Source: Synergistaceae bacterium
Lineage (GTDB): Bacteria > Synergistota > Synergistia > Synergistales > Aminobacteriaceae
DNA length: 30,842 nucleotides
Reading direction: 5' to 3'
NCBI GenBank assembly: GCA_017455085.1
Contig: JAFTBT010000113.1
Span: 1 to 30,842 of the forward strand
Made by a program: the position numbers and the translations under genes. The stretch's first letter is position 1. Every line of letters begins with the position of its first letter. The notes below the pieces were generated by a model. The model saw only the letters and a program-made list of their open reading frames with translations, made no database searches and was not told the origin of the DNA. Below are positions 14,654-24,480 of the stretch, piece by piece.

Positions 14654-17600
14654 GTGAGTAACAGGAAGTTTTTCGTGTTCATGAGTATATTTTTCCTGCT
14701 ATGTCTGGCTGCGTTCACCGGCGGATGCGGAGGAGGCGGAGGCGGAAGTTCACACCCAAGTGCTGTTGAACCGAGTCCCGATATTACCGTCCCAACGAGT
14801 CCAGACACACCCGCACCTTCAGGCTACACCGTATCCTTCAACTCCAACGGAGGCTCTGAGATCCCCAGCGTTACCGTCAGCAAAAACAGCACCATCAATC
14901 AGCCCGAAGACCCCGTGAAAGATTCATGCCTCTTTGCCGGCTGGTACAAGGACAACGAAACTTTTGCAGACCCCTTCGCTTTCGGTGATGACGGCGAAAA
15001 AGTAACCGGAAACATTACGCTTTATGCACAGTGGTTCGATGATGACCCCGCAGGTTTCGCAGTGGATTATTCGCTCGCAATGATAGAGATAGCTTACTCT
15101 GACGGAGATAATCCCGACTACGTCACGCAGAATCTTGGCCTGCCCTCAAGCTCCGAAGGACTCCCCATCACGTGGACAAGCACAAACTCCGCAGCCATTG
15201 CCCCAAACGGAGCAGTAACTCGTCCCGCAGGCAGCAACACTAGAGTCATTCTCACGGCCTCAGCAGTCAGCGGAGACTTCAGAGCCGCAAAGAGCTTTGA
15301 CCTCACAGTGATACGCGCAAGGTCTCTCACGCCGGAACAGGCAAAAATAGTGATCGCTCCCGTTGATGTGGCTGATATTGAGGCGATGAACTACAGCAAT
15401 GACGCTTTCGAGATGGACTACTCAGAATCGAGTGACGTTGTTCGCGCGATTGAGGGTAGATTCACGAACATTACTGTGGGGAATGCTGACGATGCCCTTG
15501 ACGCGGTGCAGAGCGTTCACGGTATGCTAGGCATTGATGACCCCTACGAGGAGTCCGAACTCTTCAGCGTTGCCAGAGACGAATACGGAGCTCAGTACTC
15601 CTTCAGGCAGGTATACCCTCACGCGGACACTCACGAGAAGATTCCTGTGTACGGAAGGGTGCTTATGGTCTCGGCGAATGCTTCAGGTGATACGGATTTC
15701 CTCACGTCAAATTTCTCGCCCACTGACAGCATGAATGACGTATACACTCAGTACACGAAGGACATTGCGGAGAGTGCAGCACTCAGGCATTACGCAGGCA
15801 GCAACAGCACCGTTGATGTAGTTTCGAGCGATACCAGAAAGATCATTTACTCGCTGGGAGACTATGAGCTTGAGCCGGTTATGGCCTTCGAGGTGAGAGT
15901 CAGGGGGAATACTTCGAGCGGTGATGTTATTGACGAGAATGTTATCGTGAGCGGTCATGATTTGTCGATTATCGCGGTGGATGAGAATATCCGCACGTGG
16001 AAGAAGAATGACACTGCAAGAGACGAACTCGGAGTCCTCCAGACATTTCCGGTAACGTATGACCTGCTGCTTAGGAAAAATATGCGTGACAGCGGGCATC
16101 CTGAGGTCAGGATATACAACGGCAATCTAGATACTCCTGTGCGTACGATCTTTTCAGGCAGCTTCAGGGACGGACAACAGATTTCAGCCTACACGAATAT
16201 GCGGAGAGTCATAAACTGGTGGAGGGTTACTTTTGGCAGAAACTCTCTAAACAATAAGGGAATGACCGTGAAGGTAGTTACTCACGATACGAGCACACGT
16301 GATAATGCCTACTGGAGTTCCCAAAGCGAATATATCGCCATCTGCAACCTGTACAACAGCAACAAGTACGAGTTTTCGCGCGCAATAGGTCTCGACACTC
16401 TGACTCACGAGACTACTCACGCAGTAATGTATTACTCCACCGGAGGCATTCCCTACAAGAACGCAACGGGAGCAATTGATGACGGCTATGCAGATATTTT
16501 CGGATGTCTCAGAGATCGGGATTGGCAGCACGGCTGGAGAGTCGACCCCAACAGCACAGACCCAGAGAAAGGCATAACGTACTTCGTCGACAAGACTCAA
16601 TGCTTGAGGGACGCTAGGGAGGCCATCACCGTAAACAGCCTCTCTCAGAATGACAACAACGACGGGACTCTGGACGACATTAACGACCTGTACGACATGT
16701 ACAAGACTGTTGCCCCCGCTCGCGTGAACGACAACAACGGCTGTCACACGTATTGCCGACTCGTGACTCATGCGGCGTACCTCATGCATCAGGACGGAGC
16801 AGAATCTGACGGCCTGACTTGGGTGGAGCTTGGCCGGGTGTGGTACAAGTCCTTCACTATGGGTTATGACGCAACATCGGACTTCCACACTGTGAGGCGC
16901 AATATTCTGCGTTCAGCGCAGCAGCTCAGGCTCTCAGACGCAAAGATACGCACCATCAAGAAAGCGTTCGACAAGATCGGAGTCTATGGCCGCAGAGGAA
17001 CTATCAAGGGCAGAGTCACGGACTACATGAACGGCGGGACACTAAGCGTAGGGACTGCGAGCGTGATAATTCGCGGGAGTGCAGGGCAGATCGAGACGCG
17101 TATATCGACGGTGAGTGCTGACGGGAGATTTTCTGTCAATGTGGAGACAGGGCATCACACAGTTACGGTATATCCCAATGCCGGATCTTACAGGACATAC
17201 CAGACTAGAGTCTCCCTCGTGAACGACAAGGACTCCGTTAATATTAATGCTGCTCTGGTCAGGACAGGGACAGGGAGCATTGACGTGTATGTACGTGACG
17301 CGAAGACGGGAAATTATCTCAGCGGTGTAACTGTCCGTGTGGTGAACAACTGGACGCAGGCCACAGAGCAGGGAACTACGAACAGCAGCGGCAGATATAC
17401 CTTCAGGGGGATTCCTTCGGGGTACTACACTGTGAGGACGTACAGAACAGGCTACAACGGCGGAGAGTTTTCGGTGACATTGCCTCCGTCACGGACGATT
17501 ACCCTCAACGGGGCTGTTTACCCGGAATCTAGAGAACGCTATATAGTGCTGCTTGAGACGGAAGAGTCTAACTTCAACGATTTTTCTGCGCACCTGAAGG

Positions 17601-17956
17601 CGAACATAGACGGACAAGCCGAGTTCCTACTGGACAGCGATAACGATACAGTTTACGTGAACGGCAAGGAGTCCGCGCATCATTACGGCCTGCCGGTTGT
17701 TTCCACGCACTGGATCGACTTCATCAATTACTCCAGAAGCGAATACGTGTACTATGTGAAGCGTGAGAACTCATCGGTTGAGTGGGGCTATCCCAGAGTG
17801 AGAGTGAGGCTGTACTACAAAAATAACGCGTTCGTAAGCGAGTACATACTTTTAGACTCGGAAACTCAGGGGGACTACTGGGAAGTGTTCAGGATCAGGA
17901 ATAACGGATACCGCAAGAAAGTAAACGCCATTCGTGAAGAAGAGCCGGATTTGTAG
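14654..17956 (+). CDS. Secreted M4 (thermolysin-like) metalloprotease lipoprotein, multidomain
   Basis: An 1100-residue exported protein. A signal peptide ends at a probable lipidated Cys25 followed by seven glycines. Next are an InlB B-repeat-like domain (residues ~57-128, ending ITLYAQW), an Ig-like domain (~135-222, LPITWTSTNSAAIAPNG), and an FTP/PepSY-type propeptide (~290-450). The M4 catalytic region has HETTH at 585-589, GAIDDGYADIFG at 606-617 and the active-site His698 in NNGCHTYC. The C-terminal tail has two carboxypeptidase-regulatory-like beta domains (~783-970) and an unassigned end. The third zinc ligand, normally Glu in NEAxSD, is Asp610 here. The GTG start follows GGAG by about 12 bases. 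It should sit on the cell surface or outer membrane and degrade protein. Confidence 0.87.
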   Translation: MSNRKFFVFMSIFFLLCLAAFTGGCGGGGGGSSHPSAVEPSPDITVPTSPDTPAPSGYTVSFNSNGGSEIPSVTVSKNSTINQPEDPVKDSCLFAGWYKDNETFADPFAFGDDGEKVTGNITLYAQWFDDDPAGFAVDYSLAMIEIAYSDGDNPDYVTQNLGLPSSSEGLPITWTSTNSAAIAPNGAVTRPAGSNTRVILTASAVSGDFRAAKSFDLTVIRARSLTPEQAKIVIAPVDVADIEAMNYSNDAFEMDYSESSDVVRAIEGRFTNITVGNADDALDAVQSVHGMLGIDDPYEESELFSVARDEYGAQYSFRQVYPHADTHEKIPVYGRVLMVSANASGDTDFLTSNFSPTDSMNDVYTQYTKDIAESAALRHYAGSNSTVDVVSSDTRKIIYSLGDYELEPVMAFEVRVRGNTSSGDVIDENVIVSGHDLSIIAVDENIRTWKKNDTARDELGVLQTFPVTYDLLLRKNMRDSGHPEVRIYNGNLDTPVRTIFSGSFRDGQQISAYTNMRRVINWWRVTFGRNSLNNKGMTVKVVTHDTSTRDNAYWSSQSEYIAICNLYNSNKYEFSRAIGLDTLTHETTHAVMYYSTGGIPYKNATGAIDDGYADIFGCLRDRDWQHGWRVDPNSTDPEKGITYFVDKTQCLRDAREAITVNSLSQNDNNDGTLDDINDLYDMYKTVAPARVNDNNGCHTYCRLVTHAAYLMHQDGAESDGLTWVELGRVWYKSFTMGYDATSDFHTVRRNILRSAQQLRLSDAKIRTIKKAFDKIGVYGRRGTIKGRVTDYMNGGTLSVGTASVIIRGSAGQIETRISTVSADGRFSVNVETGHHTVTVYPNAGSYRTYQTRVSLVNDKDSVNINAALVRTGTGSIDVYVRDAKTGNYLSGVTVRVVNNWTQATEQGTTNSSGRYTFRGIPSGYYTVRTYRTGYNGGEFSVTLPPSRTITLNGAVYPESRERYIVLLETEESNFNDFSAHLKANIDGQAEFLLDSDNDTVYVNGKESAHHYGLPVVSTHWIDFINYSRSEYVYYVKRENSSVEWGYPRVRVRLYYKNNAFVSEYILLDSETQGDYWEVFRIRNNGYRKKVNAIREEEPDL

Positions 17957-19833: not shown

Positions 19834-21009
19834 TTAATATCCCATATTTTTCAGAGCTTGCTTTGCGTAAGTATTTCCCTGTTCAGCAGCTTTGCGATAC
19901 CATTTCAAGGCCTCTGATTTGTCCTTAGGGACTCCCTCGCCGTAGTCGTACATCCGCCCCAGCCAGTATTGAGCCTTAGCGTGTCCCTGTTCAGCAGCTT
20001 TGCGATACCACTTTGCTGCCTCCGATTTGTCCTGATGGACTCCCCTGCCGTAGTAGTACATATCCCCCAGCCAGTATTGAGCCCTAGCGTGTCCCTGTTC
20101 AGCGGCTTTGCGATACCATTTCACTGCCTCCGAGTCGTCATTAGGGACTCCCTCGCCGTAGTCGTACATCCGCCCCAGCCAGTATTGAGCCTTAGCGAGT
20201 CCCTGTTCAGCGGCCGGAAGAAGATACTTGAACGCCTCATCATAATTCCCGGCATCATAATACTTCTTGCCCTGTTCATAGAGCTGTGTAGCAGACTGTG
20301 ATATTTGCATCGCAGGCTGTGAGAATACTACTTGTTGCTGACTCTTGCTCTGTTGAACTCTGCTCCGCTGTTCCTCAAGCTGCTTTTGTGCCTCCGCTTT
20401 TTTCCGTGCCTCTTCAGCTTTTCGGGCTTCAGCCTCTTTGAGTTCCCTCTGTTTGCGCTCAATCTCTGCCTTCAGCCGTTGCTCTTCCCTGAGTTTTTCC
20501 TGACGCTGGCGTTCTAGCTCTTCTCTTCTCCGTGCCTCCTCAGCTTTTCGGGCTTGCTCCTGCCTCAGCTCCTCCTGCTTGCGCTGAATTTCCGCCTTCA
20601 CCCGTTCTTCTTCCCTGCGCTGCTCCTCAATCTGCCTCTGCAAATCTGCTCTCTGCTTTTTCTCTTCCTCAGTCTGAGCTTGAATGTCCTGCAACGCCGA
20701 ATCATGACGCTTTAGGGTTTCTTTGAGTCTGGCGAGGTGTTGTTCTTCCTGCTGGAGAATCTCTAGCTGTTTACGCAGTTCCTCTTCTGAATCGTCTTGC
20801 TTCTGTGTTTGCTGTAGTGTCTGAGTCACAACATTTTGCAATTGTTCAAGCTGGTGTTTGACTTCCTCATCGTGAGATTCGTTCTTTTTCCTGAATATTT
20901 TTCTCAGGCTCGGAAATATCGCGAACGCTATTAAAAGCAGAACCGCAGCAACAATTTCACTGCTAACTTTTTTCAAACCTTCAATGATGATCTCAATCAG
21001 AGCTGTCAT
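19834..21009 (-). CDS. Membrane-anchored coiled-coil protein with C-terminal SEL1 repeats
   Basis: A 391-residue protein. One N-terminal transmembrane helix (IVAAVLLLIAFAIFPSL, about residues 20-37) is followed by a basic stop-transfer. Then comes a ~190-residue charged coiled coil dense in Glu, Gln, Arg and Lys (REEERVKAEIQRKQEELRQE style). Three full 36-residue SEL1 repeats plus a partial fourth follow (AAEQGHAKAQYWLGRMYDYG...). SEL1 repeats are protein-binding solenoids found in many bacterial signalling and envelope proteins. I chose ATG 21009 with TAGGAGA upstream. The topology suggests a scaffold projecting from the inner membrane, and no enzymatic domain is seen. The tRNA genes lie divergently upstream. 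Confidence 0.85.
   Translation of the reverse strand: MTALIEIIIEGLKKVSSEIVAAVLLLIAFAIFPSLRKIFRKKNESHDEEVKHQLEQLQNVVTQTLQQTQKQDDSEEELRKQLEILQQEEQHLARLKETLKRHDSALQDIQAQTEEEKKQRADLQRQIEEQRREEERVKAEIQRKQEELRQEQARKAEEARRREELERQRQEKLREEQRLKAEIERKQRELKEAEARKAEEARKKAEAQKQLEEQRSRVQQSKSQQQVVFSQPAMQISQSATQLYEQGKKYYDAGNYDEAFKYLLPAAEQGLAKAQYWLGRMYDYGEGVPNDDSEAVKWYRKAAEQGHARAQYWLGDMYYYGRGVHQDKSEAAKWYRKAAEQGHAKAQYWLGRMYDYGEGVPKDKSEALKWYRKAAEQGNTYAKQALKNMGY
19877..20216 (-). repeat. 108-base tandem repeats encoding SEL1 units
   Basis: The segment containing CCCTGTTCAGC recurs at about 19877, 19985, 20093 and 20201, an exact 108-base period. The units are nearly identical at DNA level, not only in protein, which points to recent duplication or gene conversion. 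Confidence 0.85.
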
Positions 21010-21059
21010 TTCAATTCTCCTAATATGGGGGGGATTTTGGCTAAATGATAACATGCAAT

Positions 21060-21088
21060 TTGCTTTTTTTGAGAGGTGATAATATAAT
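21060..21088 (+). promoter_or_regulatory. Promoter of the tRNA-Lys/tRNA-Glu unit
   Basis: TTGCTT (21060-21065) and TATAAT (21083-21088) are separated by 17 bases. The -10 ends 21 bases before the tRNA-Lys 5' end. It is the best full -35/-10 pair seen in the window. Confidence 0.65.
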
Positions 21089-21109
21089 ACCCCTTGTTGT
21101 CGAAAAACT

Positions 21110-21185
21110 GAATCGCTAGCTCAGTCGGTAGAGCACCGGACTTTTAATCCGGGTGTCGGGGGTTCAAGTCCCCCGCGATTCACCA
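21110..21185 (+). tRNA. tRNA-Lys (anticodon UUU)
   Basis: A complete 76-base cloverleaf. Acceptor strands GAATCGC and GCGATTC pair fully. The D arm is GCTC...GAGC, the anticodon stem CCGGA/TCCGG encloses loop CTTTTAA (anticodon at 21143-21145), and the T arm is GGGGG TTCAAGT CCCCC. The discriminator A and the encoded CCA (21183-21185) are present. Confidence 0.97.
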
Positions 21186-21202
21186 GAACAGTCCACAAAA
21201 AT

Positions 21203-21278
21203 GGTCCCATCGTCCAGAGGCCTAGGACACAGCCCTTTCAAGGCTGCGACGCGGGTTCGAATCCCGCTGGGACCGCCA
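21203..21278 (+). tRNA. tRNA-Glu (anticodon UUC)
   Basis: A complete 76-base cloverleaf. Acceptor strands are GGTCCCA and TGGGACC, the anticodon stem is CAGCC/GGCTG with loop CTTTCAA (anticodon TTC), and the T arm is GCGGG TTCGAAT CCCGC. The discriminator is G with encoded CCA. It follows tRNA-Lys after 17 bases, so one transcript is likely. Confidence 0.97.
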
Positions 21279-21299
21279 AAATATCAATTTGTCTATCTT

Positions 21300-21341
21300 A
21301 GTACTCAAGATGGAAGAAAGGAGTACTCAAGATGGAAGAAA
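21300..21341 (+). repeat. Tandem duplication around the small peptide's start
   Basis: AGTACTCAAGATGGAAGAAA occurs at 21300-21319 and again at 21322-21341, a perfect 20-base copy with a 22-base period. Each copy carries an ATG followed by GAAGAA. Only the second ATG (21332) opens the 46-codon frame. The first copy supplies the AAAGGAG Shine-Dalgarno for it. Confidence 0.9.
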
Positions 21342-21472
21342 AAAAGAAAGTAGAGAATCCCCGCATAAAATATCATAAACCCGCTGTGTTGCTTTCAAGT
21401 GAAGACCATGCCCCATTCAGTTTGTCCTGCAAAGGCGGTATAGCGAATTGTCTTCACTGCCGCGAAGCATAA
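21332..21472 (+). CDS. Candidate RiPP precursor peptide (46 residues, three Cys)
   Basis: ATG 21332 to TAA 21470-21472 gives a 46-residue peptide. The Lys/Glu-rich N-terminus (MEEKKKVENPRIK) leads into YHKPAVLL, then a Cys-containing tail SLSCKGGIANCLHCREA with Cys at about residues 33, 40 and 43. AAAGGAG lies 8 bases upstream, a good ribosome site. The Y-x-x-P element resembles leader motifs bound by PqqD-like recognition domains, and the next gene encodes just such a domain fused to a radical SAM enzyme. The small size, leader/core layout and position argue for a modified-peptide precursor. I cannot name a family. It sits 53 bases after tRNA-Glu with no obvious terminator between. Confidence 0.62.
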   Translation: MEEKKKVENPRIKYHKPAVLLSSEDHAPFSLSCKGGIANCLHCREA

Positions 21473-21556
21473 TCCTAGTGTTGGTAGTGTAACATGCTCA
21501 GAGTCGGTAACTTTTATGACTTTGGGCATTTCGTTTATTAGGCTGAGAAACTTAAA

Positions 21557-23008
21557 ATGAGGTACTATTCGTTAAAATCTGATTGTTACGTCAGAACTTA
21601 CGGCGATATTGGTTACATTTCTAGGCCGCTTGCTGGTATAGACAAGATTGTAGATTCAACCGGTGCTGTCTTTCTCAGTAAACTTCAGTACGTGCCGTTA
21701 TCTATTAATGACATAACAAAGTCATTGACGGCCAGCTTTGAGGATGCTGATGAAGCTGAACTTGCAGAAGACGCTGTTTCTTTTTATGATATGTTGCTTG
21801 CTGATGATTTTCTGAATGTCGGCAGCAGTATGCAGGTTGAATCGGATTCTTGTTTTGATTATTCTACTCTCAAAGGTGAACTTGCATACAAAGATGGTTA
21901 TATTGCTGATACATCATCTGAAAAGTTCCTGATTGATTACTCAAAGAAGAATCCTTTTTTATTTACTTTTCATATAGAATTGACGAGTAAATGCAACGAG
22001 CGGTGTATTCATTGTTATATTCCTCACGAATGTAAGAATGCCGATATTGAGTATGATTTGATGATAAAAGCTCTCAATCAGTGCAGGGAGATGGGTGTGA
22101 TGAACATTGTTTTTTCTGGCGGAGAACCAATGCTGCATCCCAATTTCTGCGATTTTCTACGTTATGCTAAAGACTTAGATTTTAACGTTACTGTCCTCTC
22201 AAATCTTACGTTGCTGAATGATGAGATCTTAAGCGCATTAAAATACAGGCATAGTTCTTGTGTTAATGTGTCCCTGTATTCAATGGACGGCCGGGTACAC
22301 GACGCTATTACCACAGTTGAAGGATCTTTTTTCAGGACAAAAAACAATATTCTTCGGCTGATAGATAATAACATTGCAGTTCAAATTAACTGTCCAGTGA
22401 TGAAGCAGAATCAAGCTGTATTCCAAGACGTAATACTATGGGGACACGAGCATAAGTGCGCCGTAATTCTTGATTATATTATCATGGCGAGAAGCGACCG
22501 TTCTGTAGATAACCTTGAATGCCGCTTAACAAAAGAAGAAATTAGGCCGGTACTGGAGAGAATATTACAGAATGATGTAGTTGTTCAGGCAAATATTAAA
22601 TCATCTGCTTACCGAAGCGAATTATCATCGGAAATAATTGACCCTGATGAAAGGGTTTGCGGCGTGGCGTTGTCTACAATATGCATGGTTGCAAACGGCA
22701 ATGTGTACCCTTGTGCTGGATGGCAGAAATATGTTTGCGGAAATCTTAATGAGTCATCATTGCAGGAGATATGGACGAAATCACCAGCAGTTATTTTTCT
22801 GAGGCAGCTGCGGCTGAAGGACTTTAAGAAATGTATGGGCTGCGAGGACAAAAAATACTGCCTTATGTGTATCAGCCGAAATTCTAATGAAAGTGAAACA
22901 GGAAGTGTGTTTGATGTACCTCAAATTACATGCGAGGCAGCCAGAATACAGCATCAAGTTTTTGATGAATATGCTGTACAAAATTATGTTAAAGAGGAGG
23001 AGTCGTAA
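21557..23008 (+). CDS. Radical SAM/SPASM peptide-modifying enzyme with N-terminal PqqD-like domain
   Basis: A 483-residue protein. Residues ~1-90 look like a PqqD-type RiPP recognition element (YVRTYGDIGYISRP..., ending in an acidic helix DADEAELAEDAV). The radical SAM core has the CNERCIHC cluster motif (Cys146, 150, 153) and SGGEP at 187-191. The C-terminal SPASM region carries Cys368, 376, 386, 394, 426, 429, 435, 438 and 459, enough for two auxiliary 4Fe-4S clusters. Enzymes of this build install thioether or C-C crosslinks or epimerise ribosomal peptides. The likely substrate is the peptide encoded 84 bases upstream. The ATG has only a weak ribosome site. The DNA is visibly A+T-richer than flanking genes, which suggests transfer. 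Confidence 0.9.
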   Translation: MRYYSLKSDCYVRTYGDIGYISRPLAGIDKIVDSTGAVFLSKLQYVPLSINDITKSLTASFEDADEAELAEDAVSFYDMLLADDFLNVGSSMQVESDSCFDYSTLKGELAYKDGYIADTSSEKFLIDYSKKNPFLFTFHIELTSKCNERCIHCYIPHECKNADIEYDLMIKALNQCREMGVMNIVFSGGEPMLHPNFCDFLRYAKDLDFNVTVLSNLTLLNDEILSALKYRHSSCVNVSLYSMDGRVHDAITTVEGSFFRTKNNILRLIDNNIAVQINCPVMKQNQAVFQDVILWGHEHKCAVILDYIIMARSDRSVDNLECRLTKEEIRPVLERILQNDVVVQANIKSSAYRSELSSEIIDPDERVCGVALSTICMVANGNVYPCAGWQKYVCGNLNESSLQEIWTKSPAVIFLRQLRLKDFKKCMGCEDKKYCLMCISRNSNESETGSVFDVPQITCEAARIQHQVFDEYAVQNYVKEEES

Positions 23009-23277
23009 TGGATATACGTTACATTGAGAGCCAAACAAAGACAGTTCAGGGAAAAGAAAACGAGATTCGCCGAAAGTACGGCAAAGAATGGAATATCCAG
23101 CCGCTAGGAGGTGGAAATGGTAACTGGCTGCTGAGCAAAAACAGTGATGTTCTTGTAGATGGAGTAAGTTATCGCTATTTTGTGCTTGAAAAATATCACG
23201 AGGATAAATTAACCAAAGGTCTGTTTGAACAATTCCGTAAAGATGTGGAAGATGGTAATATCGAACTGCCACAATAG
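23008..23277 (+). CDS. Small protein coupled to the radical SAM gene, unknown function
   Basis: An 89-residue protein whose ATG shares a base with the radical SAM stop (TAATG), with GAGGAGG just upstream, so it is made together with that enzyme. It is charged, has no Cys and no signal peptide, and contains a glycine-rich turn (PLGGGNGNWLL) followed by a beta-like segment (DVLVDGVSYRYFVLEKY) and an acidic helix. I do not recognise it. In peptide-modification loci such a coupled small protein may be an accessory or chaperone, an immunity protein, or an additional precursor. The lack of Cys makes a thioether precursor unlikely. Confidence 0.7.
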   Translation: MDIRYIESQTKTVQGKENEIRRKYGKEWNIQPLGGGNGNWLLSKNSDVLVDGVSYRYFVLEKYHEDKLTKGLFEQFRKDVEDGNIELPQ

Positions 23278-23300
23278 ATATTAACAAAAGTCCTGCAATA

Positions 23301-23333
23301 GAAAAGGAGCCGTCAAAGCCCCTCTTTTGTTTT
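23301..23333 (+). terminator. Probable terminator of the peptide locus
   Basis: AGGAGC and GCCCCT form an imperfect stem around CGTCAAA, flanked by A and T runs and followed by TTTTGTTTT. It closes the peptide cassette. The rest of 23334-23445 shows no gene. Confidence 0.5.
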
Positions 23334-23445
23334 AGCTGATATGCATTCTCATGAATAACTTAGATCCCAACATAAGCATTAGACATTTTTTGTGAGGTCT
23401 GTGATAATTCGCTCATCCCAAATTTTACAGGAGGCTTCACACAAA

Positions 23446-24480
23446 ATGTTAAAGATTATAGCTTCAGCGTTAATGCTTCTCTCTATTGCGTCTGCAGCAA
23501 TGGCTGCGGACATCGAGGACTTCAAGGACGATACGCGCGTCTTCAAGATTGACCCGACTATCACCGTAAAGAAAGCGCATTTTCACAACAGGTACGGAAT
23601 AGATTTGACCGGAGACCTGTATCTTCCGGCAGGGTTCGACAGCGCAAAAAAGTATGCCGGTATCGCAGTAGCCGGGCCTTTCGGCGCAGTGAAAGAGCAG
23701 GTTTCAGGGCTGTACGCTCAGGAAATGGCTAAGGCCGGATTCGTGGCAGTAGCGTTTGATCCGTCGTTCACCGGCGAGAGCGGAGGAGCTGCGCGGTATG
23801 TTTCGTCCCCTGAGATTAACACTGAGGACTTTTCTGCGGCGATAGACTTCCTGATGACCAGAGACTTCATCGACCAGGAAAGAGTCGGTATCATCGGCGT
23901 ATGCGGCTGGGGCGGAATAGGTCTGAACGCCGCCGCGGCTGATACCCGCATAAAAGCATCCGTTATCTCTACAATGTATGATCTGAGCAGAGTTGCGAGG
24001 AACGGGTATTTTGACGCTCAAGACAGCGCAGAGGCACGCTATCAGGCCAAGAAAGCCATGAACGAGCAGAGAATCAAAGACTACAAGGCCGGGACATATG
24101 CACGTGCAGGCGGAGTAGTTGACCCATTGCCGGAAGATGCTCCGCAGTTCGTGAAGGATTATTATGCTTACTACAAGACACCTAGAGGCTATCACAAGAG
24201 ATCTCTGAACTCAAACGAAGGCTGGAACGTTACAGCAGGACTCGCAATGATCAACATGCCTATGCTTACGGACATTGAGGATATTCGCAGCGCAGTGCTG
24301 GTGATTCACGGCGAAAAAGCCCACTCAAGATATTTGGGTGAGGACGCTTTCAAGAGGCTCAAGGGCAGCAACAAGGAGCTGATGATCATTCCGGGAGCTT
24401 CACACGTGGATCTATACGACAACATGGAGGCTATCCCGTTTGCAAAGATAGTGGAGTTCATGAACACATACATGAAGTAG
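23446..24480 (+). CDS. Exported alpha/beta hydrolase (dienelactone-hydrolase/YcjY-like)
   Basis: A 344-residue protein with a signal peptide (MLKIIASALMLLSIASAAMA, cleavage near residue 20-22). ATG 23446 is chosen because AGGAGG lies upstream and a signal peptide begins there. The alpha/beta-hydrolase core shows AGPFGAVKEQ (oxyanion region), the nucleophile elbow GVCGWGG with Cys153 instead of Ser, VLVIHGEKAHSRY in the acid region, and a catalytic His320 in GASHVDLYDN. Cys nucleophiles are known in dienelactone hydrolases. The substrate is unknown; a periplasmic ester or lactone is likely. It is a stand-alone gene with its own terminator. Confidence 0.85.
   Translation: MLKIIASALMLLSIASAAMAADIEDFKDDTRVFKIDPTITVKKAHFHNRYGIDLTGDLYLPAGFDSAKKYAGIAVAGPFGAVKEQVSGLYAQEMAKAGFVAVAFDPSFTGESGGAARYVSSPEINTEDFSAAIDFLMTRDFIDQERVGIIGVCGWGGIGLNAAAADTRIKASVISTMYDLSRVARNGYFDAQDSAEARYQAKKAMNEQRIKDYKAGTYARAGGVVDPLPEDAPQFVKDYYAYYKTPRGYHKRSLNSNEGWNVTAGLAMINMPMLTDIEDIRSAVLVIHGEKAHSRYLGEDAFKRLKGSNKELMIIPGASHVDLYDNMEAIPFAKIVEFMNTYMK

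Follow-up and report, generated by a model that had tools for sequence, protein, structure and literature searches.

A candidate two-gene RiPP locus pairing a short cysteine peptide with a radical SAM/SPASM enzyme in a Synergistaceae bacterium

A 30,842-nucleotide stretch of DNA from a Synergistaceae bacterium (contig JAFTBT010000113.1 of assembly GCA_017455085.1; the window, in what follows) carries a gene for a 46-residue cysteine peptide directly ahead of a gene for a radical S-adenosylmethionine (SAM) enzyme with a SPASM region. The locus is read here, at a probability of roughly 0.8, as a two-gene module for a ribosomally synthesised and post-translationally modified peptide (RiPP), in which the 46-residue peptide would be the substrate, its leader would be bound by a RiPP recognition element (RRE) of the enzyme, and the enzyme would cross-link the cysteines of the core. 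The evidence is that of sequence, and consists of the pairing of the two genes across genomes, a coding constraint on the peptide, an RRE-type profile match, the set of SPASM cysteines, and covariation in a hairpin between the genes. The features on which the argument turns are the following:

21332..21472, + strand: precursor peptide gene, 46 residues, with KYHKP in the leader and a C-x6-C-x2-C core
21494..21529, + strand: RNA hairpin of 13 pairs between the peptide and enzyme genes, from folding and covariation
21557..23008, + strand: RRE-radical SAM/SPASM enzyme gene, 483 residues, from Pfam profiles and alignment
21653..21811, + strand: enzyme residues 33-85, PqqD/RRE-like, from the Pfam PqqD profile with the N-terminus alone (23.5 bits, cut-off 23.4)

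The leader of the peptide (MEEKKKVENPRI) is rich in Lys and Glu, and is followed by KYHKP and the tail CKGGIANCLHC, with a spacing of 16 residues from KP to the first core cysteine. A gap of 84 nt (21473-21556) separates the gene from that of the enzyme. An initial annotation of the window had described this peptide, its cysteine pattern, the 84-nt gap, nine SPASM-region cysteines and a TAATG junction with a third gene, all of it correctly on a reading of the sequence. The peptide itself has no match in NCBIfam or Pfam at E up to 1. Compared with the corresponding peptides of loci L039/L089, L090 and L091, it shows substitutions at codon positions 1, 2 and 3 of 0, 1 and 9, of 2, 2 and 13, and of 1, 2 and 14, respectively, over 32 core codons. 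This excess at the third position argues that the peptide is translated and conserved, and the codon pattern together with pairing with the enzyme rules out a chance open reading frame (ORF).

Pairing was assessed in 92 oriented loci including the window, in which all 13,783 small ORFs were listed. The sample was drawn from the best 80 of 261 confirmed genome loci (589 stretches), supplemented by three viral loci and by a search of Synergistaceae in which 13 of 81 genomes were positive; L029 and L032 (truncated by the end of a contig), L083 (a partial match of 30%) and L084-L089 (duplicates or fragments) were left out, and L101-L115 lie outside the set. Wider sampling gave two positives among 391 genomes, both already known, and two among 297, one already known, and most enzymes of 50-63% identity lie outside the loci sampled. 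Two iterated profile runs were made, seeded from peptides of two core classes, AAGCP and GRPC, that are set by loose letter patterns. Because the 18 seeds in all were taken from the zone upstream of the enzyme, which favours that zone, the evidential weight rests on the recruited members. The AAGCP-seeded run collected 82 peptides in 80 loci, and the GRPC-seeded run 87 short cysteine peptides in 84 of the 92 loci, namely the same 80 and the four of the window type. Without exception, the matches of the two runs lie on the enzyme's strand and at most 1.3 kb upstream of it (87 of 87 in the GRPC-seeded run), a zone that holds 1168 of the 13,783 small ORFs (8.5%); one of the 87, an 80-residue ORF in L020, is probably spurious, and L020 has a better candidate. 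The proposal of the initial annotation that the peptide is the substrate is thus well supported at the level of sequence, through this conservation beside homologous enzymes, the codon pattern and the RRE-type profile.

The place of the window peptide in this family was examined with a held-out profile, from which the four window-type peptides had been removed. After the 83 training members, ranks 84-88 fell to L090 (E 0.012), L066 (0.026), L091 (0.072), L039 (0.17) and the window (0.33), and the window peptide outranks all unrelated ORFs. Single scores of this kind are weak; it is rank order, location and spacing together that make a convincing case, from sequence comparison, for the window peptide as an outlying branch of the family.

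The enzyme carries the radical SAM motif CNERCIHC (Cx3Cx2C) and nine SPASM-region cysteines, at residues 368, 376, 386, 394, 426, 429, 435, 438 and 459, of which C368, C386, C426, C429, C435, C438 and C459 are invariant across 34 relatives; the Pfam Radical_SAM and SPASM profiles are both matched in 34 of 34. A PqqD-like N-terminus had also been proposed for it. With the whole enzyme the PqqD profile gives E 9.4e-4 and 19.9 bits, under the cut-off of 23.4, and with the N-terminal 96 residues scanned alone it gives 23.5 bits, barely above the same gathering score. The profile is matched at E up to 0.01 in 30 of 34 relatives, and in 27 of 28 with the N-terminus alone, so that the proposal holds as a profile match. 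A profile of the N-terminus searched against the PDB has as its top two matches PqqD itself (3g2b, E 0.021) and TbiB1 (5v1u, E 0.042), which we take to be a lasso-peptide RRE. By these sequence comparisons, the N-terminus is PqqD/RRE-like. Matches of the whole-enzyme profile in the PDB include SkfB (6efn), PqqE (6c8v), 5v1q, presumably SuiB, and 5wgg. The last of these is named as CteB in PMC10352776.

Orthologous loci of 81-91% identity occur in three genomes (G001, a Synergistaceae bacterium with locus L039; G025; and G046), and one of the nearest database enzymes, 80% identical, is likewise from a Synergistaceae bacterium. In one genome (L039/L089 and L084) the enzyme is split over two contigs, with residues 187-247 not found, and the split enzyme, together with a remnant of the downstream 89-residue protein gene, reflects either an assembly fault or decay. 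Two proteins of 825-826 residues (P0009 and P0015) have an additional radical SAM/SPASM copy fused N-terminal to an enzyme of the window family, the added copy being, by eye, without some of the SPASM cysteines. L035 has, between the enzyme and an amidohydrolase, a further ORF (L035:3154-4419) whose N-terminus resembles that of the enzyme.

The peptides of the main branch have the following layout. In alignment A3, a YxKP leader is followed by 16 residues before the first core cysteine in 45 of the 47 AAGCP-class loci measured (of 52), and in the GRPC class the spacing from KP to the first cysteine is 13 residues in 27 of 27 loci. Searched against a database, A3 gave 1668 proteins (counted as peptide clusters) with E of 0.01 or less among 1747 candidates, the best 120 of which were inspected, not all of them being placed beside an enzyme. 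All 120 end in C-x2-C-[ED]-R (98 with E, 22 with D), 118 have the 16-residue spacing, and the stretch from the first cysteine to CxxC is variable, giving a main-branch pattern of YxKP-x16-C...C-x2-C-[ED]R. The set of AAGCP loci is looser, being more varied after CxxC, with six matches that do not have the C-x2-C-[ED]-R end. Window-type peptides keep the main-branch spacing and the C-x2-C, followed not by [ED]R but by RE (CLHCREA in the window, L039 and L091) or RQ (CLHCRQL in L090); a spacing of 36 obtained for L090 is an artefact of the letter pattern falling on an upstream extension. A role for the Glu of C-x3-E as a universal acceptor was considered and does not hold for the window branch.

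None of the best 120 matches has a Pfam domain, and their names are mostly 'hypothetical protein', with the exceptions of 'Bacteriocin [Treponema peruense]' (P0282) and 'L-asparaginase II' (P0295). Peptides of the relatives likewise gave nothing above cut-off, for ten in NCBIfam and for nine in Pfam. The initial annotation had stated that the core pattern matches no known precursor family, which stands insofar as no NCBIfam or Pfam precursor model is matched; the pattern is not isolated, the window peptide being an outlying member of a large and apparently unnamed family. The family was not recognised in the open-access literature, and goes unmentioned in those parts of PMC10352776, PMC9062424, PMC9413430, PMC12710340, PMC7470986 and PMC11002830 that were available, so that its novelty is provisional.

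Core type and enzyme appear to have evolved together. On a rapidly built maximum-likelihood tree for 91 enzymes, made without bootstraps and with several long branches, peptide class changes 10 times, as compared with a mean of 34.4 in shuffled assignments, a value as low being reached in 0 of 200 shuffles, with the reservation that near relatives inflate this clustering. All 27 GRPC rows fall inside one clade of 29 rows (SH-aLRT 100), and the three full-length window-type enzymes form one clade on a long branch, the deeper placement of which the tree leaves unresolved. By these comparisons of sequence, core type tracks the enzyme tree. The rows belong, by record title, to Spirochaetota, Bacteroidota, Bacillota, Synergistota, Fibrobacterota, Verrucomicrobiota, Elusimicrobiota, Thermodesulfobacteriota, Actinomycetota and Pseudomonadota, many of them being metagenome-assembled genomes for which some phylum labels may be wrong.

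Partner genes differ between the classes. In 47 of the 92 loci (for instance, at L093:2042-2776) the enzyme is followed downstream by an amidohydrolase gene, which begins no more than 250 nt past the end of the enzyme in 40 cases, and which is distributed as 45 of 52 AAGCP loci, 2 of 8 loci without a peptide, 0 of 27 GRPC loci and 0 of 4 window-type loci. The three amidohydrolases scanned match Amidohydro_2 and no NCBIfam model, and the protein is a candidate processing enzyme. A UvrA-like ABC ATPase is encoded directly 3' of the enzyme in 12 loci, comprising 11 of the 27 of the GRPC class (L031, L033, L037, L038, L040, L041, L043, L046, L071, L077 and L079) and L052, in which no peptide was found; the L052 protein, the sole one scanned, has the UvrA DNA-binding domain. 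A possible function for this ATPase is to protect the producer from a DNA-directed product. Four Synergistaceae loci share a transporter-like gene on the opposite strand. Elsewhere in the window, at 14654-17956, lies a gene for a protein of 1100 residues with a Listeria-Bacteroides repeat, an M4 thermolysin-type peptidase domain and carboxypeptidase-regulatory domains.

Several observations weigh against the two-gene reading. All four window-type peptides were missed by the AAGCP-seeded run, and in the held-out ranking the window, at E 0.33, is adjoined by an unrelated ORF at 0.36. Neither profile run found a peptide in 8 of the 92 loci (L049, L052, L053, L059, L064, L066, L072 and L076), the upstream sequence in L049 and L064 being only 105 and 406 nt. 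The PDB E-values of the N-terminal profile are weak. Furthermore, the ten gene clusters common to at least four of the 92 loci included none that could be recognised as a peptide exporter or C39-type peptidase, an unusual situation for an exported RiPP, with the caveat that assessment of the clusters was largely by eye and that diverse single transporters would escape.

The last of these observations fits a tentative alternative, that the two genes yield a cofactor or signal acting inside the cell, comparable to PQQ or mycofactocin, and not an exported product, the modified peptide being trimmed by a housekeeping hydrolase or by one belonging to the system, such as the amidohydrolase that so often follows the enzyme in the main branch. 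However, this amidohydrolase is missing from the window and from its orthologues, and the variable stretch between the first cysteine and CxxC is unlike a fixed cofactor scaffold; one family member is also named 'Bacteriocin' by its source, an unsupported label. It is very improbable that the peptide is instead an unmodified thiol or metal-binding protein adjacent to the enzyme for some other cause, since three cysteines with a CxxC end could bind a metal but would not account for pairing in 84 of 92 loci, the RRE-type domain, the conserved leader, or a core class that tracks the enzyme tree.

A third gene follows the enzyme and had been put forward as a coupled member of the system:

23008..23277, + strand: 89-residue protein, start overlapping the enzyme stop (TAATG), probably outside the modification system

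A three-gene system of peptide, enzyme and this 89-residue protein, in which the last would be needed as a carrier, chaperone or immunity protein, is improbable, even though the TAATG overlap is as described, a GAGGAG ribosome-binding site precedes the gene, and a complete homologue of 76% identity occupies the same place in L090. The gene survives as only a 3' remnant in L084 and is absent from the stretch of L091 that was compared. Homologues with E of 0.01 or less number 82 proteins, for the most part 52-98% identical and with no Pfam domain. In three samples of Clostridia the gene was found in 1 of 10, 5 of 397 and 7 of 400 genomes, the single genome of the first sample being also one of the five. 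The resulting 12 loci represent one mobile element, which carries a RepA_N gene and matches L101 at 99.97-100% identity over 3061-3261 nt. No enzyme or precursor is present in the stretches of about 3.1-3.3 kb that were compared for these 12 element loci. Patchy orthologues and an enzyme-free element point to a passenger or an independent gene, and make an essential partner unlikely; the overlap described by the initial annotation stands, and conserved partnership does not.

The region in which the peptide gene begins has the following features:

21110-21185: tRNA-Lys, just upstream of the peptide gene
21203-21278: tRNA-Glu, just upstream of the peptide gene
21300..21343, + strand: pair of start units of 22 nt (AGTACTCAAGATGGAAGAAA and two further bases), each carrying an ATGGAAGAA start, the two out of frame with each other
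21319..21323, + strand: ribosome-binding site AGGAG, 8 nt 5' of the peptide ATG, from a reading of the sequence

The peptide starts in the second of the two units. Tandem ATGGAAGAA start units, spaced by 22 or 25 nt and differing in frame, are found in the window, L089, L090 and L091, the productive unit being the downstream one in the window and the upstream one in L089, and L090 having three units in three frames. A single-base slip in such an array would change which start is productive. A tRNA end also lies, by eye, directly 5' of the peptide gene in L089, L090 and L091. A consensus scan of 20900-23700 found no + strand sigma-70-like site 5' of the peptide, a result that is little informative as the sites found number 5, compared with 6.6 in shuffles, and it is possible that transcription of the peptide starts from the tRNA unit.

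The gap between the peptide and enzyme genes of the window folds at -22.1 kcal/mol (z -2.16), with z of -2.22, -5.01 and -1.52 in the orthologues. Over four sequences the hairpin has 98.1% of cells paired, and five pairs are changed on both sides, as compared with 0-2 in slid controls. Against simple rather than dinucleotide shuffles, z falls below -2 in 45 of the 53 loci whose gap measures 40-200 nt, the window giving -1.9 and L091 -1.5. Hairpins 3' of precursor genes are thought to give a peptide-rich stoichiometry in other RiPP operons.

Systems with a related enzyme offer partial parallels. The ranthipeptide maturase PapB, which makes the C-x3-D/E thioethers of freyrasin, is likewise a radical SAM enzyme with a short cysteine peptide, and links Cys-x3-Asp while accepting Glu and other spacings (PMC9413430). 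The C-terminal C-x3-[ED] of the best 120 family database matches has the spacing linked by PapB. The window enzyme nevertheless scores 55.1 against 340 bits in the PapB model (NCBIfam NF047865), and its family has a single motif, at the C-terminus, in place of six, a motif that is missing in the window branch. The ranthipeptide maturase CteB (which acts on SCIFF) and the sactisynthases SkfB and AlbA have the same radical SAM body and SPASM region, SkfB and CteB being among the PDB matches given above, and yet the sactisynthase models give the window enzyme only 72.9 against 850 bits for AlbA, 51.9 against 300 for SkfB and 66.3 against 625 for StsB. SCIFF, moreover, has six cysteines in about forty-five residues, whereas the window precursor has three core cysteines and no NCBIfam precursor match. 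The PQQ (PqqE/PqqD) and mycofactocin systems share a PqqD-like module and a SPASM enzyme, PqqE being matched in the PDB; against their models the window enzyme scores 62.8 versus 381 and 69.5 versus 265 bits, and the window core is based on cysteine. SynChlorMet ScmE/ScmF and the GeoRSP radical SAM enzymes have the same general architecture (81.5-91.9 bits), short of cut-offs of 400 bits. Among the 25 best NCBIfam models, the window enzyme approaches no cut-off.

In the two-gene reading, leader binding, the type of cross-link, removal of the leader and the final role of the product are what we infer. The 46-residue peptide would serve as the substrate of the enzyme, and the intergenic hairpin would probably yield more peptide than enzyme. 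The YxKP-type leader would be bound by the PqqD/RRE-like N-terminus, after which the radical SAM/SPASM body would oxidatively cross-link the core cysteines, most likely as thioethers, with a change of -2 Da per link. For the main branch a C-x3-[ED] link is plausible by the precedent of PapB. In the window branch the acceptor is probably different, or the link at another cysteine, because the acid of C-x3-[ED] has moved (REA) or, in L090, been lost (RQL). A wider picture may be sketched, to be held loosely: the main branch would make one C-terminal Cys-to-Glu/Asp thioether and use the amidohydrolase; the Synergistaceae side branch would have dropped both hydrolase and acid, so that its cross-link site or acceptor chemistry changed; the CGxGPCGRPC branch, with its UvrA-like ATPase, would hint at a DNA-directed product; and the whole would constitute an unnamed RiPP class spread over about ten phyla.

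RiPPs made by radical SAM enzymes are a source of new cross-link chemistry. In this family, core types (AAGCP, GRPC and that of the window) map to enzyme clades and to different partner genes, and this correspondence makes a direct test of the linked residue possible.

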